Shown: one piece after another, positions 6,077-14,332 of the stretch
Numbering within the stretch: the stretch's first letter is position 1
Layout: every line of letters begins with the position of its first letter
Source: Eubacteriales bacterium
Lineage (GTDB): Bacteria; Bacillota; Clostridia; Peptostreptococcales; Acidaminobacteraceae
Assembly: GCA_030625575.1 (NCBI GenBank)
Contig: DAOUQP010000004.1
Span: 1-41,931, forward strand
Length of the DNA: 41,931 nucleotides
Direction: 5' to 3'
The notes under the pieces: model-generated
Seen by the model: only the letters and a program-made list of their open reading frames with translations
Databases searched by the model: none
What the model was told of the DNA's origin: nothing
Made by a program: the position numbers and the translations under genes

Positions 6077-6106
6077 GCGTACCTATTATTGGTACGCTTT
6101 TTTATT
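6077..6106 (+). terminator. rpsT rho-independent terminator
   Basis: GCGTACC-TATTATT-GGTACGC followed by TTTTTTATTTTTT. Confidence 0.8.
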
Positions 6107-7115
6107 TTTTTGACGTTAATTTCATAAACAAGCTTTCTATATGAGCTCTTTTATTTACTCCTTGGCTTTTAGAAACACTCTCGTACTCAATACAAGATTC
6201 AAGGGACTTCGTAAGAGATTTCTTATCTAATCCGTTAACTCTTTTCAATATAAGTTTAACAGGATATGAAGATTTAAATCCTAGTATTTCTTGTATATCA
6301 TTTATCGGATGACTTTTTAAACTTAAAGTTTTTGCTATCAACATATTATTATATTGTTTTGTCAACAAAGGCATAATTTCATATGTACTATGACCTTTTT
6401 TTAAAAGTTCATGTAATTTTTTAAAACTTGTCTTGATATCCCCATCTGCCAAACTATCCGTCAAGGCAAATACATTCATTTCAAGAGGCATCACCATAAT
6501 TTCCTTAAGATTTTCTATATCTATCATTTCATATGGCAATGATGAGATTTTTACAATTTCGTTTTCCATTTGATATAGGCTGATAGATTGGTTTCTATCA
6601 TTATACATTGAATAATTAATGAAAAATTCCAATGATTGGTTCGATAATTTTTTTCCGTTATCTCTAAATTTCTTAATAACCCATTTCCGAAAATCACTGC
6701 CATCCAATTTTTCAAATTCAACCACTTCAATTTCGGCTTTTTTAAACCGTTTATATACTTTAGACATCTTATTTTTAAATGTAATTATATTGACGCTTCC
6801 AATCGCCTTGTGGCTTACATCAATAAGATTATCAATCTGATCATCAGTCAAATTCATTTGGTCCAAGTTCTTTATCTCAACAATTTTATATTCACTCATA
6901 ACCGGCAAAGTGATGATACCGTTATAAACTTGATTATAATCGGCTTCCGCCCCGTCATAGTATCCGTAGTTGAAAACAATAAGCTCAGGATTCAAGTAAT
7001 CTTTCTTTATTCTTTGAATAGTGTGGTCATAAAGATAATTCTCACGGTTGACCATAAGATAAGCACTCTTTAAAGATTTTGTTTTTGATAATTTCAGTAT
7101 ATCAAGATAGTTCAT
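6102..7115 (-). CDS. holA: DNA polymerase III delta subunit
   Basis: 337 aa with HolA-like layout (YLMVNRENYLYDHTIQRIKK..., FALTDSLADGDIKTSFKKLHELL); directly downstream of comEC and next to rpsT as in Firmicutes. Confidence 0.88.
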   Translation of the reverse strand: MNYLDILKLSKTKSLKSAYLMVNRENYLYDHTIQRIKKDYLNPELIVFNYGYYDGAEADYNQVYNGIITLPVMSEYKIVEIKNLDQMNLTDDQIDNLIDVSHKAIGSVNIITFKNKMSKVYKRFKKAEIEVVEFEKLDGSDFRKWVIKKFRDNGKKLSNQSLEFFINYSMYNDRNQSISLYQMENEIVKISSLPYEMIDIENLKEIMVMPLEMNVFALTDSLADGDIKTSFKKLHELLKKGHSTYEIMPLLTKQYNNMLIAKTLSLKSHPINDIQEILGFKSSYPVKLILKRVNGLDKKSLTKSLESCIEYESVSKSQGVNKRAHIESLFMKLTSKK

Positions 7116-7125
7116 ATATATTCTC

Positions 7126-9228
7126 CTAAAAAAATTTAAATTTTATCGTATTTTCATTAACTATTTTTATCATAATGGTTCCAGATTCTTTTGTAGTCAG
7201 CACAAGTTCTGAATATCTTTCAAGTCTATCCATCGCTTCAGAATGAGGATGTCCATATGGATTGTTTCTACCTACAGAAACAATGGAAAGTGTTGGATTT
7301 AAATCCCTCAAAAAATCATCAGTCGATGAATCTTTTGACCCATGGTGAGGAACTTTTAGGATATCGATTTCAGAGATCATAGAATCTTTTTCAATATATT
7401 TTGTAATATCCCCTGTAAATAAAATTGTTACTCCATCGATGGACATTTTTATAACATGAGATGTATCGTTTAAATCCTTCGACTTCATCCCCTCTATTGT
7501 AGGATTAAAAACTTCCAAGTAAATTTGTCCGAATTTCAATTCATCGCCAGTATAAATGGCTTCTATATGATTATATAACAAATCCATATTTTTTAAAATG
7601 GAATCATCATTCAAAAATAGATGACCTATTTCAATATCTTCAAAATACCTTAATCCTCCATAGTGATCCATATGATTATGGCTTATCAATACGGCATTCA
7701 ATTGTTCTATACCTAAATATTCGAGATATTCATTAACATCACGCTTGCTTCCTGTATCTATGAGTATTTTACTATTCCTATAGTTTATCAATGCACTATC
7801 GCCGTTTCCCACATCAAAGAAAAAAATGGTATCTTCCATTACATCTTGATACATATTATTCAATATGATAATAAAGCATAGTGACAATGCTATTATGTAT
7901 GGTCTGTATGATTGTACTTTCAAATATAATGATTCATTCTCTTTTATTAAGAAATAAATAAAAAACAAAAAATAATAACTGAGAACTATTAAACTGCTGC
8001 AATAAAACAAATCAACGCTTAGAAATTCTATTTTTGAAATATACCTCAGCATTTCGATAATCAAGCCATAAATATATCGTATACCTCCGTCAAGCAGTGC
8101 AATTTTAAATGGTACAATCGCACTTAAACCCGTTATCGGCAATAACCATCCCATTATGGATATCATTATGATGTTGAAAGGTATTGTCAAGATATTCACC
8201 TGAGAATTTATCGTTAGAATTATCGGCAAAATTCCCAAATATACTCTATAAACATGCAAAATATCATCTTCTTGAGCTAAAGCAAAAGCCGCTAGAAAGC
8301 TCAGTTGATAACTGATATAACTGCAATAATATGGGTTGTATATTAAAAATACGATATTAAGCACAGCTATGGCCGACATGCTGTCGTATGCGTTATTAGT
8401 AATGATACTTAACTCTTTCAACAGTTTCTGCCCAAAAGCTCTCATAATGGAAATATGAAATCCGGCTAAAAAAGCTATCATTCCCAAAAGAATGAATACA
8501 AATGATTTTCTGATGGCATAATAAATTTTTAATCTACTCAATACTTTTTCAAAGCTGTTGGCAATAATTGAAACATGCAACCCCGAAACCACTAAAAGGT
8601 GAGATAATCCGAAGGCATTGAATATTTGCTTGGTTTCACTATCCAATATTTCCTTAATTCCAAATAGTATAGTAAAAACAAGGTCGCCTTCAGCTCCAAA
8701 TTTATTTTTTATGTGATTATATAGTTTTCCAAGTATCACGAATCTTAAGGTAGGTTGTTTTGATTCATGCTCGATAATTTCATCTATGCTCAGCTCATAA
8801 AAAAAGTTCTTTCCCGCCAAGTATAAACCATAATTGAATTTATTCAGACTTGATTCTGTATTGATTCTCTCAAGTTTTCCGGTTACTTTAATATAATCTC
8901 CATCTTTTAAATCAATCGGTGGATAATCGATTATTACATTGCGAACATCGTTGTTTATATTCAAATAGTATTTATCCTCTTGAAAAATAGATCTCGAAAC
9001 AACTCTACCTTCATAAGTATGTTCGCCTTCATTTAGAGAAGTTCTAAAAAAACAGGACAAAAGAATCAACGCTACAATAAGGATAATAAATACAATAGGC
9101 ACCTGACTCTCTCTAAAGAGAAACAAGGTGCCTATCAATAAAAATATGAAAATGCCATAATGATGATAAACTATACTTAAACTTAAAATATAGATGATCA
9201 TACTTAAAATCAATAATTGTCGTCTCAT
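7126..9228 (-). CDS. comEC: DNA internalization competence protein ComEC/Rec2
   Basis: Multi-TM competence domain (FGLSHLLVVSGLHVSI) plus C-terminal metallo-beta-lactamase domain (SHNHMDHYGG, HHGSKDSS). Confidence 0.93.
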   Translation of the reverse strand: MRRQLLILSMIIYILSLSIVYHHYGIFIFLLIGTLFLFRESQVPIVFIILIVALILLSCFFRTSLNEGEHTYEGRVVSRSIFQEDKYYLNINNDVRNVIIDYPPIDLKDGDYIKVTGKLERINTESSLNKFNYGLYLAGKNFFYELSIDEIIEHESKQPTLRFVILGKLYNHIKNKFGAEGDLVFTILFGIKEILDSETKQIFNAFGLSHLLVVSGLHVSIIANSFEKVLSRLKIYYAIRKSFVFILLGMIAFLAGFHISIMRAFGQKLLKELSIITNNAYDSMSAIAVLNIVFLIYNPYYCSYISYQLSFLAAFALAQEDDILHVYRVYLGILPIILTINSQVNILTIPFNIIMISIMGWLLPITGLSAIVPFKIALLDGGIRYIYGLIIEMLRYISKIEFLSVDLFYCSSLIVLSYYFLFFIYFLIKENESLYLKVQSYRPYIIALSLCFIIILNNMYQDVMEDTIFFFDVGNGDSALINYRNSKILIDTGSKRDVNEYLEYLGIEQLNAVLISHNHMDHYGGLRYFEDIEIGHLFLNDDSILKNMDLLYNHIEAIYTGDELKFGQIYLEVFNPTIEGMKSKDLNDTSHVIKMSIDGVTILFTGDITKYIEKDSMISEIDILKVPHHGSKDSSTDDFLRDLNPTLSIVSVGRNNPYGHPHSEAMDRLERYSELVLTTKESGTIMIKIVNENTIKFKFF

Positions 9229-9276: not shown

Positions 9277-9813
9277 TTATTCCTTATTGCCCATCAATTT
9301 TTTATACGTAATTCCTGTTTTTTCCAAAGCTAACAATATAGGTAGTGCAAGCACACCTCCGCCAATTCCTTGAACGATATTTGGCAAAACACCTAGCAGT
9401 GCAGCTTTATAGCCATATAATGCCGATTCAAATATATAATACCCTCCGACCATAATAATCGTTCCCACGGATATCGCAACGGCAAAATGAACAATTTTAA
9501 TCGACAGTTTATCTGTGTTTTTAGACAATGCGCGATAAATCAATCCTACCGCCAGAGCGTCAAGTCCTTTAATCATAAAAGTCGGAACTGCATAAATAAG
9601 ATATCCGGAAATAAAGTCAGCTAAAAAAGATCCAAGTGCAGCTGCCAAAAATCCAAATACATTACCCAATAAAATTCCCGATAAGTAAACTAACGTATCA
9701 CCAATATGTATGTAACCCTTTGTCGGTGTAGGTACTTGAATAACCAATGTTCCAACAGTCACCATAGCGGCGAACAAACTTGCTAAAATCCATTTTCTAA
9801 TATTTTTATTCAT
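9277..9813 (-). CDS. ECF transporter S component (substrate not assignable)
   Basis: MNKNIRKWILASLFAAMVTVGTLVIQVPTPTKGYIHIGDTLVYLSGILLG; about 6 hydrophobic segments, PTPTKGYIHIGD signature. Confidence 0.82.
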   Translation of the reverse strand: MNKNIRKWILASLFAAMVTVGTLVIQVPTPTKGYIHIGDTLVYLSGILLGNVFGFLAAALGSFLADFISGYLIYAVPTFMIKGLDALAVGLIYRALSKNTDKLSIKIVHFAVAISVGTIIMVGGYYIFESALYGYKAALLGVLPNIVQGIGGGVLALPILLALEKTGITYKKLMGNKE

Positions 9814-9883: not shown

Positions 9884-11659
9884 CTACCGCGTGCCCATAC
9901 AGTTATAAAACTTTTCAATTTCTTCTATCTCTTCTTGATTCAAATTATACATTCGATAAATGGCTTGATTCAAATTATCAAAGTTTTTCACATCAAATTT
10001 TTCATTGGCCAATAGAAGTTCATCACTATACTTTATCGGAATCTTCTTAAGAGGGGTACTATACAGTTCCAAGATATTCCCCTTTTTTTTACCAATATTA
10101 AAAAGCCAGAAATACATTAGTTTTGAATTAAGAATAGAAGCAATTACTCTTAGATCAAAAACAACAGTTTTAGGAATAATATAGTAAACATCCGCACTTG
10201 CATAAAAATCTTCTAAAGAAATCGCAAATTTATTGCAAATATTCCGATGTGGTACAACTATTTTAGGAACTTCAAAAATATTTTTTTCTCTAGGCCACTG
10301 AAGTGCATACCATTTTCTTATACCTTGAATCACTTCTCTTCTACTTTCCAAGATCGGTCTAAATTGTTCCAGATACTTATATTCTTTCGATGTTTCAGAC
10401 AACTCTACTTCATTATCAATATACAGTATGTATTTATTGCTTTTTATATTGATAGAAAAATTATCTATATCTGAATTCTTATAAAATCTCTTTAAATATT
10501 TAGAATCTGTTAAATCGTATTTACTTAATTCTTCCTCAGTTAGAACAAAAACACCTTGTCCTGTTTCAACTCGTTCCAATTGATATAAATTGATTTTTTT
10601 TTCATTTAAATAATCTGCACCAGAAACAATTCCTTGATGGATTTCAAAAAAATCACCTAGATTGAAAGTACTTTGCTTTTTAATTTTATCAATAAGGTCG
10701 TAATCTTTTTTATCAGTGTAAACTTGAATATAATTATTATCAGAATAAAGATTCATTTCTTTGATTTCAAATATCTTATCGTGGTTATGAATAATTACAT
10801 TTCTGTTATTGCATTTCATTGAAGTAATGGTTATAACGTTATGTTGCCCAAGAGCTTCTTTAAAGAGTTTCTTTTCATGAAAATTAATGATTTCTTTAAA
10901 ACTTATGTTTTCTTTAATGAACTTTCTAAGTTTATTAGCTCCATCAGCAGTAAAAAAATAATTAGTTGTAATTACACCCATAACACCATTCGGTGCTAAA
11001 AGTTCCCACCCTTTATACATAAAAAAGTAGTAATAATCCATTTTGCTTTCATAGTATTTTTTGCCGAATTTATTTTTTTTAATATCCCTAAAAAACGTTT
11101 TATTGTTTTTTTCTCCTATATACGGTGGATTCCCTAAAATAATATCAAATGTTTCTTCAATATCCGTTTCTAAAGTATTGCCGTGGTTCACATTAAGTTC
11201 TAATTCCCATGGAAATTCTTCAAACAACAACAACATTTTATTTGTATATATCAATAAAGGTTCCCACTGAAGATCGTAGGCAAAAAGATTTTTAACTATC
11301 AATTTCAATTCTTTATCGCTTTTAGGATTTATGTATTCAATATAAGCAAATAGTAAATTTCCAGTCCCAGAAGAAAGGTCAGCAACCTTCGCATCACTTA
11401 TAGACTCTTCATAATATGAAAGAGTCTTTTCCACAATTAAATTTGATATTTCATTTGGAGTATAAAAACTACCGGTCGTTAATTTTTCTTCTTTTGAAAT
11501 CACGCTTTCATTTGTAATGTCAATAAATAAATCTAAAAAGATATTTTTTGACTTCAAATTAAAATCATAATGCTTCTCGATGTAGTCTTCATACAAATCA
11601 TATGAAATATGAAATTTATCCAGCACTTGATGAATAGACTGAATAACCATTTTTTTCAT
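9884..11659 (-). CDS. Solitary N6-adenine DNA methyltransferase with C-terminal TaqI/CamA-like specificity domain
   Basis: GSFYTPNEISNLIVEKTL, motif I DLSSGTGNLL, catalytic NPPY (ILGNPPYIGEKNN), C-terminal RREVIQGIRKWYALQWPREKNIFEVPKIVVPHRN. ATG at 11659 has a good RBS (ORF track start is 11692). Confidence 0.9.
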   Translation of the reverse strand: MKKMVIQSIHQVLDKFHISYDLYEDYIEKHYDFNLKSKNIFLDLFIDITNESVISKEEKLTTGSFYTPNEISNLIVEKTLSYYEESISDAKVADLSSGTGNLLFAYIEYINPKSDKELKLIVKNLFAYDLQWEPLLIYTNKMLLLFEEFPWELELNVNHGNTLETDIEETFDIILGNPPYIGEKNNKTFFRDIKKNKFGKKYYESKMDYYYFFMYKGWELLAPNGVMGVITTNYFFTADGANKLRKFIKENISFKEIINFHEKKLFKEALGQHNVITITSMKCNNRNVIIHNHDKIFEIKEMNLYSDNNYIQVYTDKKDYDLIDKIKKQSTFNLGDFFEIHQGIVSGADYLNEKKINLYQLERVETGQGVFVLTEEELSKYDLTDSKYLKRFYKNSDIDNFSINIKSNKYILYIDNEVELSETSKEYKYLEQFRPILESRREVIQGIRKWYALQWPREKNIFEVPKIVVPHRNICNKFAISLEDFYASADVYYIIPKTVVFDLRVIASILNSKLMYFWLFNIGKKKGNILELYSTPLKKIPIKYSDELLLANEKFDVKNFDNLNQAIYRMYNLNQEEIEEIEKFYNCMGTR

Positions 11660-11695
11660 GAATACCTCCAAAAAAAGTTTGGCAAAAGCCAAACT

Positions 11696-12103
11696 CTATT
11701 TTTTTAATGAATAACGGTCTTCCTTAATTTTTGTCACTCCAGGAATTGTTTGAATAATTTCATCGACAACTAAATCGACGTCTTTAATTCGAACATCAAT
11801 CCCTTTCTTTTTCAAATACTTCATTATTGTTATTAATCTAATATAATAATGATTAGGATGTTTAAAAAAAGGATGTTTTAAAATCATTTTTTTTATTTCA
11901 TCTCTATCAATCACATTGTTTTTTTCAATTTTGTCTTCGACACCATTAACCAAGTCATTTATCTTTGTCGAAGGGTCCTCATTATTCTCTATAATATTTT
12001 TAATGTCATCAATAATACTTTCAACTGTTATATCACTGCTTTCCAGTGATTTATATACAGTTTTACTGTTTTTTATCTTTGACTTACCCGAAGGTAATTC
12101 CAT
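11696..12103 (-). CDS. Uncharacterised protein in the methyltransferase operon
   Basis: Tightly spaced ORF; start at 12103 (MELPSGKSK...) preceded by AGAGGAG; ORF track extends to 12127. Confidence 0.7.
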   Translation of the reverse strand: MELPSGKSKIKNSKTVYKSLESSDITVESIIDDIKNIIENNEDPSTKINDLVNGVEDKIEKNNVIDRDEIKKMILKHPFFKHPNHYYIRLITIMKYLKKKGIDVRIKDVDLVVDEIIQTIPGVTKIKEDRYSLKK

Positions 12104-12164
12104 TTTCAAGCTCCTCTCAAATACCAAGTAGATCTATACTGATTTTACTATTAAATTACAATTA

Positions 12165-13064
12165 TTACAACAGGTCATCAATTGTTATAATCTTATCTGA
12201 CAAATGAACCAAAGAATCTCCAAAAATTTTATTTATAAGTTCTTTCCCCTCATTGAGAGCGTCTATACCTCTAAAATCAATTTCCAACTTGTTTTTCAAA
12301 TCGACAATCTCTCCTAATGTCAATTTATCTTCAACTATTTGATAAATCCCCTCTTCTAGAGCTAATATCATGATCTTTTCGGAATTTCTGAGTACTTCAT
12401 CAACCTTTATTCTATCTTTGACAGCATAAACCGCCTCATGAATATCATAACTTTCTTCTTCACTTTCAATACCGATAGTATCATCTATTATATTAGAAAA
12501 AATATAAAGTAATATTGAATTATTTCTGATAAATTCATTAATCTCCAAATATCCAATTGAATTTTTAGCTTCAGCAAATTTACTCATAATTCCCTTTAGC
12601 AAATATTCTTTGAAACTTCCATCAAATATTGTCATTTCGTCAACAAAATAGTAATTATTATTATAAGGATATATCCTTGCAAAAATAATTCCTGTTTCAT
12701 CAAGAAGTTCGATATTCCCTATTACATAATCTGTTTTGTCAAAGAGATCTTTTAGAATAAAGTTGTTCTCGGTTTTTACTACAGTAAAAAAAGAAATTTT
12801 TGAATTTCTAAAAGATTTATATAAATTTTCATCAACATGACTGTTTTCCTTATATAAATCAATCAATTCATATTTATCTTGAAAACGATAATCATGAATA
12901 ATCCAATCATTAAAACCCTTATCCCCATGCGCCTCAGAAATTTGTTTATCAGAAACGTATTTTTTATAAGCTTTTTCCATATTTTCTTTGAGTGACTCTT
13001 CAGATAAAAAATTAAGTAATTTAACTTTTAACTGTAAAATCTCATCAATTATTTTCGTTGCCAT
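12165..13064 (-). CDS. Uncharacterised protein, first gene of the methyltransferase operon; central part resembles a region found in some SEC-C/YecA-like proteins
   Basis: FNDWIIHDYRFQDKYELIDLY...SKISFFTV...IIFARIYPYNNNYYFVDEM; start at 13064 (MATKIID) after GAGGTGG; ORF track start 13073. Confidence 0.65.
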   Translation of the reverse strand: MATKIIDEILQLKVKLLNFLSEESLKENMEKAYKKYVSDKQISEAHGDKGFNDWIIHDYRFQDKYELIDLYKENSHVDENLYKSFRNSKISFFTVVKTENNFILKDLFDKTDYVIGNIELLDETGIIFARIYPYNNNYYFVDEMTIFDGSFKEYLLKGIMSKFAEAKNSIGYLEINEFIRNNSILLYIFSNIIDDTIGIESEEESYDIHEAVYAVKDRIKVDEVLRNSEKIMILALEEGIYQIVEDKLTLGEIVDLKNKLEIDFRGIDALNEGKELINKIFGDSLVHLSDKIITIDDLL

Positions 13065-13135: not shown

Positions 13136-14332
13136 ATGACAGAAAAATTGTTCATTAACAATTCATATATTACAGAATTTACTGCTGATATCATAAATGT
13201 TATTGAAGATGATTCAAAATTTATGATTGAACTGGATAAAACATGCTTTTATCCCGAAAGTGGTGGGCAACCAAGCGACATAGGTTTTATCGACAATTGC
13301 AGTATTTTTGATGTCCAATATAAAGATGAAAAAATCTATCATTATTCAAAAGAAAAACCTGAAAGTACTCTTGATGTTCAATGCCGAATCAACTGGGATT
13401 CAAGGTTTGATTTGATGCAACAACACTCAGGACAACATATATTATCTTCGTCATTCGAAAAATTATTTGATGCAAATACAATCGGTTTTCACTTAAGCGA
13501 AGAATCTGTCACTATTGATCTTGATAAGAAATTAGATGCTTTTGAACTAGAAAAAGCAGAAAAATTAAGCAATGAAATTGTCTTTAAGAATCTTCCTATT
13601 ATCATACATTATCCTGATGAAACTATGCTGAATCAAATGCCGCTTAGAAAACCGACTAAGGTTTTTAAGGACATTAGGATTATAGAAGTAGAAAACTTTG
13701 ATTTTTCACCATGCGGTGGAACTCATGTGAAAAACACTGGTGAAATAGGACTTATTAAGATTAAAAAGTTTGAAAATCATAAAGATGGAATCAGGCTGGA
13801 ATTTACATGTGGCATGCGAGCATTAAAAGATTACCAATTAAAAAACAACTTGGTTAATAAAATAGCTGTCGATATGTCTGTAAGTTCTGATGAAGTTGAA
13901 AATAGCTATGAAAAGCTTAAAGAAGATATGAACCTTTTAGTTCAGGAAATAAAAGATTTAAGACAGCAACTTATTGAATACAAAATCAACGGTCTCAAAG
14001 AAAATGCTGAAATTCACAGTAATATCAAACTTATCAAATATGAATTTACAGATATAGATATGAAATCATTAAAAACGATTTCGTCTACGATCGTCAACGA
14101 ACCTGATTTTATAACTCTTTTTTCACTTGTGAATGATGATGTTAAACTACTATTTGCAAGGTCCAAAAATGTAGATGTAAATATGAAAGATATTATTAAA
14201 GAGCCATTGGAATTAATAAACGGCAGAGGTGGAGGCAGTCCATTTGCAGCCCAAGGCGGAGGAAACAAAATAAATAATGCGAGCCTAGCTTTAGAAACTG
14301 CTTATAAGCATATAAATAGCCTATTGAAATAG
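13136..14332 (+). CDS. Alanyl-tRNA editing protein (AlaX-L type, with DHHA1-like C-terminus)
   Basis: FYPESGGQPSDIGFI, QQHSGQHILSSSFEK, FSPCGGTHVKNTGEIG; C-terminal GGGSPFAAQGGG. Confidence 0.93.
   Translation: MTEKLFINNSYITEFTADIINVIEDDSKFMIELDKTCFYPESGGQPSDIGFIDNCSIFDVQYKDEKIYHYSKEKPESTLDVQCRINWDSRFDLMQQHSGQHILSSSFEKLFDANTIGFHLSEESVTIDLDKKLDAFELEKAEKLSNEIVFKNLPIIIHYPDETMLNQMPLRKPTKVFKDIRIIEVENFDFSPCGGTHVKNTGEIGLIKIKKFENHKDGIRLEFTCGMRALKDYQLKNNLVNKIAVDMSVSSDEVENSYEKLKEDMNLLVQEIKDLRQQLIEYKINGLKENAEIHSNIKLIKYEFTDIDMKSLKTISSTIVNEPDFITLFSLVNDDVKLLFARSKNVDVNMKDIIKEPLELINGRGGGSPFAAQGGGNKINNASLALETAYKHINSLLK

Follow-up and report, generated by a model that had tools for sequence, protein, structure and literature searches.

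The adenine methyltransferase (MTase) gene described here lies at a real, order-wide conserved site for a solitary methylase in the Peptostreptococcales, accompanied by two conserved and uncharacterised neighbours, p300 and p136. The window analysed is a stretch of 41,931 nucleotides that forms part of a 2.3-Mb MAG, which named relatives assign to this order and, within it, to the family containing Fusibacter and Acidaminobacter; for one sister family a taxonomy record agrees with the GTDB placement. We consider it probable that the enzyme is a solitary N6-adenine methylase of long standing in this order, passed on vertically, marking a conserved site and serving a regulatory or chromosomal role rather than restriction, with p300 and p136 forming a terminated unit of their own.

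Three close open reading frames are present on the minus strand, as the original prediction had described (Table 1). Gaps of 61 bp, 36 bp and 70 bp separate p300 from p136, p136 from the MTase, and the MTase from the ECF gene respectively, and the 71 bp between alaX and the start of p300 is where any shared promoter region would sit. A promoter scan gave 53, against 47.6 in shuffles, which is no excess, and no promoter is claimed. It had also been remarked that no restriction endonuclease is visible, and this is borne out: Pfam, NCBIfam and PADLOC revealed no nuclease domain in any of the three proteins, nor was a nuclease found among the flanking genes that could be identified (ECF S component, comEC, holA, alaX). 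In neither p300 nor p136, then, was the endonuclease domain found that, in the original prediction, would have identified the locus as ordinary restriction-modification.

Table 1 Features of the methylase locus and its flanking genes (positions in the window)
Feature	Position	Strand	Remarks
p300	12165..13064	minus	299 aa; start backed by relatives
p136	11696..12103	minus	135 aa; start backed by relatives
MTase, solitary gamma-class (Eco57I/TaqI-like) adenine DNA MTase	9884..11659	minus	591 aa; start backed by relatives; nuclease domain not found
NPPY motif of MTase	11120-11131	minus	
Intrinsic-terminator-like hairpin	11670..11696	minus	starts at last base of p136 stop codon
MTase Shine-Dalgarno GGAGG	11665-11669	minus	directly behind hairpin, ahead of MTase start
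ECF transporter S component	9277..9813	minus	conserved neighbour, outside the system
comEC	7126..9228	minus	conserved neighbour
holA (DNA polymerase III delta)	6102..7115	minus	conserved neighbour; name from original prediction, synteny marker
alaX-type alanyl-tRNA editing protein	13136..14332	plus	divergent neighbour

The identification of the third gene as an NPPY adenine methyltransferase is secure, given that the SAM motif DLSSGTGN and the catalytic NPPYIGE are both intact and that the Pfam families Eco57I (1.4e-23), N6_Mtase (2.4e-17) and TaqI_C (7.8e-12) are all matched above their cut-offs. At 591 aa, and with no nuclease domain found in the same chain, the enzyme does not qualify as type IIG. 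In a quick IQ-TREE phylogeny of 87 MTases, those of the alaX-comEC site (clade A, 52 rows) are set apart from the rest by a single branch with a support of 91, and NPPY is conserved throughout (52/52). Clade C consists of CamA and 16 further Peptostreptococcaceae-type rows, and a single clade of A and C is rejected (delta lnL 327, p-AU 1.8e-59). Seven long enzymes of type IIG size (891-1240 aa) attach near clades A and B, and four further long enzymes lie beside clade C. Among the long enzymes, L151, L164, L169 and L219 (type IIG-like) are the nearest non-solitary relatives of the window MTase in the tree, yet they are 891-1152 aa in length and the window enzyme is without their extra N-terminal part. 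Clade B, whose members lie next to ligA and/or gatCAB (L141-L144, L146, L218) with the addition of L145, constitutes a further solitary lineage at another housekeeping site (ligA and/or gatC-gatA-gatB), with DNA-contact residues nearly identical to those of the window MTase. One of its members, L218 (NZ_CP154629.1), comes from a 2.63-Mb Acetoanaerobium noterae record that is labelled a plasmid, but is chromosome-like in appearance.

Within clade A, mean pairwise identity reaches 47% in the recognition domain and 38% in the catalytic domain, the opposite of what is expected where restriction-modification specificity is diversifying. Since the recognition domain is the better conserved, no fused or adjacent nuclease was found, and inheritance is apparently vertical, these observations together speak for a solitary methylase with a regulatory or housekeeping role.

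The original prediction had pointed to a resemblance between the C-terminal segment of the MTase and that of CamA, the epigenetic regulator of Clostridioides difficile. This stands insofar as CamA is the best match of the MTase in the PDB (7LNI, phmmer E 2.2e-34; the second is M.BseCI, E 3e-24), but the kinship is at superfamily level only. Both proteins are gamma-class solitary m6A MTases with a TaqI-like C-terminal recognition domain, no adjacent nuclease, and common contacts to the first base pairs; they differ in clade, in sequence (26% identity), in chromosomal site and in neighbours, and the minor-groove His of CamA is Glu in the window enzyme. M.BseCI (PDB 7QW5) has the MTase architecture in common, but belongs to a restriction-modification system and is without the CamA-type R..W.R contacts in our alignment; it is the cognate of a type II system and recognises ATCGAT.

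Taking the DNA contacts of CamA from PMC8187626, we find the equivalents of R425, W439, R441, Q346, S472, A473 and Y521 to be invariant in clade A (52/52; R452, W466, R468, Q353, S499, A500 and Y544 in the window, by the numbering of the 602-codon ORF), although the conservation of Y521 depends on the alignment, a second one having placed mostly Thr at that column. Q438 is kept in 37 of the 52 rows. Relative to CamA, H171 has changed to Glu (52/52), I349 to Val (51/52), Y455 to His or Gln, and K456 to Arg. The contact set is nearly complete in clade B and much of it occurs in some long enzymes, so that part of this conservation is family-level; it is absent from M.BseCI and several plasmid enzymes. 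Because most residues by which CamA reads CAAA are invariant in clade A, the predicted target of the MTase is a CAA-type 5' half-site, which is a reasonable, if unproven, assignment.

The CamA clade itself merits separate comment. At 17/17 of the Peptostreptococcaceae loci read for it (L139, L140 [577-aa CamA], L152-L161, L166 and L171-L174), the methylase gene adjoins those for HPr and PTS enzyme I, as opposed to the alaX-comEC site of the window MTase. The members from outside the genus of CamA are 41-62% identical to it and keep nearly all of the base-contact residues. A patatin-like protein of ~301 aa is encoded immediately upstream of the CamA-like MTase at 7/17 loci (L154, L155, L156, L160, L161, L166, L173), and a 403-aa patatin downstream at 14/17. 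CamA has been described as C. difficile-specific and rare elsewhere (PMC8187626), yet it may instead be family-wide in the Peptostreptococcaceae.

Turning to distribution, p300 is present as a single copy in 40 of 99 near relatives, and nearly all of the 39 neighbourhoods read share the order alaX (divergent), p300, p136, MTase, ECF, comEC and holA, with a beta-propeller-like protein, TPR or other genes between the MTase and ECF in relatives. A secreted beta-propeller-like protein of 450-490 aa is often what separates the MTase from ECF/comEC (L034, L035, L036, L044, L045, L055). The same order occurs in named isolates of Fusibacter, Acidaminobacter, Maledivibacter, Thermotalea, Geosporobacter and Anaerosolibacter, and synteny of the alaX/p300/p136/MTase/comEC/holA block extends over four or more families of the order. 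The unit had originally been thought of as inserted between its flanking genes, whereas synteny reveals this to be the usual arrangement in the carrier families, and a recent insertion is rejected; the locus looks like an old chromosomal site with vertical inheritance.

Across a 395-genome sample of the order, the clade MTase was found in 66 genomes (membership being judged by length, identity and family where the locus was not fetched), p300 in 55, p136 in 51 and the whole trio in 38. The MTase occurs in 52/55 genomes with p300 and 40/51 with p136, against 66/395 overall, and the association with p300 is strong (Fisher p 5e-48, a statistic that ignores kinship), while that with p136 is weaker. 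That 38 genomes repeat the trio with its gene order unchanged is far above chance, and the case that would have refuted the original prediction, in which the partners never accompany the MTase elsewhere, did not arise. In a 291-genome sample of the class, p136 had two matches and p300 three, all of them within Peptostreptococcales, and neither was found outside this order.

The genes are nonetheless separable. Three apparent absences (G019, G029, G083) are contig edges, but p136 exists without the MTase in three f8 genomes, five f10 genomes, G004 and G095 (as well as G019, at such an edge), and in most of ten distant loci (L098-L107, of which L100 is truncated and L103, from G004, is not beside comEC) it directly precedes comEC, with holA usually next in line; L192 and L197 have this p136-comEC arrangement too. 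The MTase occurs without p136 in genera g2 and g8 and in f2 and f4 carriers, p300 without the MTase in G041 and G095, and reduced-genome relatives that are without all three genes still keep comEC-holA. Because two families have p136 but no MTase, and elsewhere the MTase occurs with one or both neighbours missing, the linkage is strong but not obligate, and a functional partnership is unproven. The proposal that p300 and p136 are dedicated partners is correspondingly weakened, both because G004 and two further families have p136 with neither of the other two genes (in those families beside comEC, at the loci examined), and because the MTase survives without one or both neighbours in several lineages.

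A further feature of the locus is a conserved hairpin between p136 and the MTase. In the window it takes the form GAGTTTGGC-TTTT-GCCAAACTT followed by T5, after which come GGAGG and the MTase ATG directly. Calling terminators by sequence pattern, we find such a hairpin no more than 30 nt from the stop codon of p136 at 33/37 loci (window to L097, including L043, which is without MTase), compared to a rate of 0.113 in dinucleotide shuffles; the stems differ greatly in sequence between loci. The hairpin is missing from 9/9 scored loci among L098-L107, where there is no MTase and p136 mostly runs to comEC. Terminators occur at 0/46 p300 stops and 2/45 MTase stops. Given a terminator at the p136 stop that is rare or missing at the other two, p300 and p136 form their own unit, and a simple three-gene operon is contradicted; of the operon originally proposed, what endures is that the three genes recur together, with the terminator parting p300-p136 from the MTase. 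The window and several relatives have no room behind the terminator for a separate MTase promoter. In the window the terminator abuts the ribosome-binding site of the MTase. We infer that in these cases transcription of the enzyme either reads through the terminator or starts within p136.

Neither neighbour has a match above cut-off in Pfam, or any match in NCBIfam or PADLOC, and sequence profile searches of the PDB returned nothing meaningful for either. The AlphaFold model of p300 has a pLDDT of 87. Its N-terminal ~190 aa correspond by homology to the central part of SEC-C/HTH_psq proteins (E 1e-25), such as a 349-aa homologue from the genus Clostridioides (L185), which share this domain; p300 differs from them in being without the SEC-C motif (no p300 member has a Pfam SEC-C match) and HTH_psq, and in having a C-terminal domain of ~95 aa that is predicted to be TBP-like. 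In the latter, residues 208-284 run in the order beta-alpha-beta4-alpha, which is that of TBP-like domains, and matches to the TBP fold have a probability near 1 and a TM-target of 0.36 over ~91 columns, the matched region being deduced from its length. The fold search gave no match below 1e-3, the best E of 0.0022 lying above the usual threshold.

The p136 protein has a helical N-terminus and a highly conserved C-terminal predicted winged helix (HPxFKxP..Y.IRLITIMKYLKKKG..D.D...VD...GV.K). Its AlphaFold model is of modest quality (pLDDT 73, pTM 0.49), in which residues 67-133 run through helices and a pair of strands in the order of a winged helix; residues 74-101 contain 7 K/R and zero D/E. 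The best Foldseek match is the DNA-binding domain of Rok from Bacillus subtilis (probability 1.00, TM-target 0.50), with an E of 0.099 that is above the usual threshold. Judging from the model, p136 likely has a winged helix. We also considered p136 as a Rok homologue and rejected this, as sequence similarity is not significant: Pfam WH_Rok matches 4/39 members weakly (best 0.0027, below cut-off), and hhalign against one Rok sequence (a 100% match to PDB 5ZUZ) gives an E of 0.07 and a probability of 0.8%. The base-contact residues differ despite the seeming similarity of fold, since D108, D110 and E128 of p136, the two Asp being invariant, align with Rok N154, T156 and R174 (in a weak, short hhalign block extended four residues by hand). 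These three Rok residues contact the minor groove, and N154D abolishes detectable binding (PMC6212790), so a Rok mechanism for p136 is not supported by sequence.

According to the explanation we favour, the MTase would mark a single conserved and probably asymmetric A-rich site (predicted to be CAA-type, related to the CAAAAA of CamA), and the methyl mark would affect gene expression or chromosome maintenance, with no part in restriction. The two-gene unit p300-p136 would stop at the intrinsic terminator on the p136 stop codon, and the MTase, transcribed through that terminator or from a start within p136, would presumably be held at a low dosage. Their predicted domains (a winged helix in p136; SEC-C-protein-like and TBP-like domains in p300) suggest that the neighbours are nucleic-acid-binding proteins, which may control the locus or operate where the DNA is methylated. 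We know of no solitary MTase with such order-wide conserved partners, and regard as rather unlikely the more elaborate possibility of a writer-reader epigenetic cassette, in which p136 and p300 would detect either the methyl mark or A-rich stretches of the chromosome and a leaky terminator would set the dosage of the methylase. The most serious competitor, to which we accord somewhat less than even chances, is that the MTase is a solitary methylase whose neighbours have an unrelated job (e.g. around comEC/holA, or their own regulation) and are kept by gene order. This would accommodate the loci in which neither MTase nor p300 is present and p136 immediately precedes comEC (most of the ten from distant families, and L192/L197), retention of the MTase where p136 is lost (G002, G022, G008, G026, G035, G039, and the f2/f4 carriers), the loss of the MTase from G095 with both partners kept, and the terminator that separates p136 from the MTase. 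It fits less well with the confinement of full-length p300 to this block in the loci read, the MTase accompanying it in 52/55 genomes, and with the several reduced relatives that are without all three genes.

Explanations that assign the MTase itself a different role fare worse. It could be a remnant of, or one part of a distributed, restriction-modification system, guarding against an endonuclease lost from the locus or encoded outside it, and its nearest relatives beyond the solitary clades are indeed of nuclease-fusion size (L151, L164, L165, L169 and the plasmid-borne L219); however, no nuclease is recognised in the trio or in recurring neighbour genes, conservation of the target-recognition domain exceeds that of the catalytic domain across families, and inheritance looks vertical, making this improbable. 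Orthology with CamA, and with it the same role, has very little in its favour beyond the best PDB match and the fact that most contacts to bases within the first four pairs are kept. It is ruled out as a candidate by the tree, the AU test (p 1.8e-59) and the chromosomal site, CamA relatives occupying the separate conserved HPr-EI site at all 17 of their Peptostreptococcaceae loci, and agrees poorly with 26% identity and with changes of H171, I349, Y455 and K456 in all or nearly all members. The undescribed anti-phage defence module that the original prediction entertained, on the grounds that unknown partners adjoin the MTase, is equally hard to credit for an old, syntenic core locus in which no ATPase, nuclease or other effector domain was found, PADLOC is blank for the partners, p300 has no match in viral contigs or phages, and p136 none in plasmids. 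On the last two of these results a phage, viral or plasmid origin was likewise rejected.

To our knowledge, few Gram-positive solitary methylases conserved above the species level have been recognised, and, should its neighbours turn out to be partners, the trio with its conserved terminator would represent a new combination. In type IV enzymes, winged-helix domains of prokaryotes are known to read m6A (PMC11037411), and the locus lets one ask whether winged-helix proteins also read methylation outside restriction. Combining a methylase found across the order, whose predicted target is CAA-type, with a terminator and two uncharacterised neighbours that are likewise conserved, it would provide a non-pathogenic system, for example in Fusibacter, for studying methylation and gene regulation.
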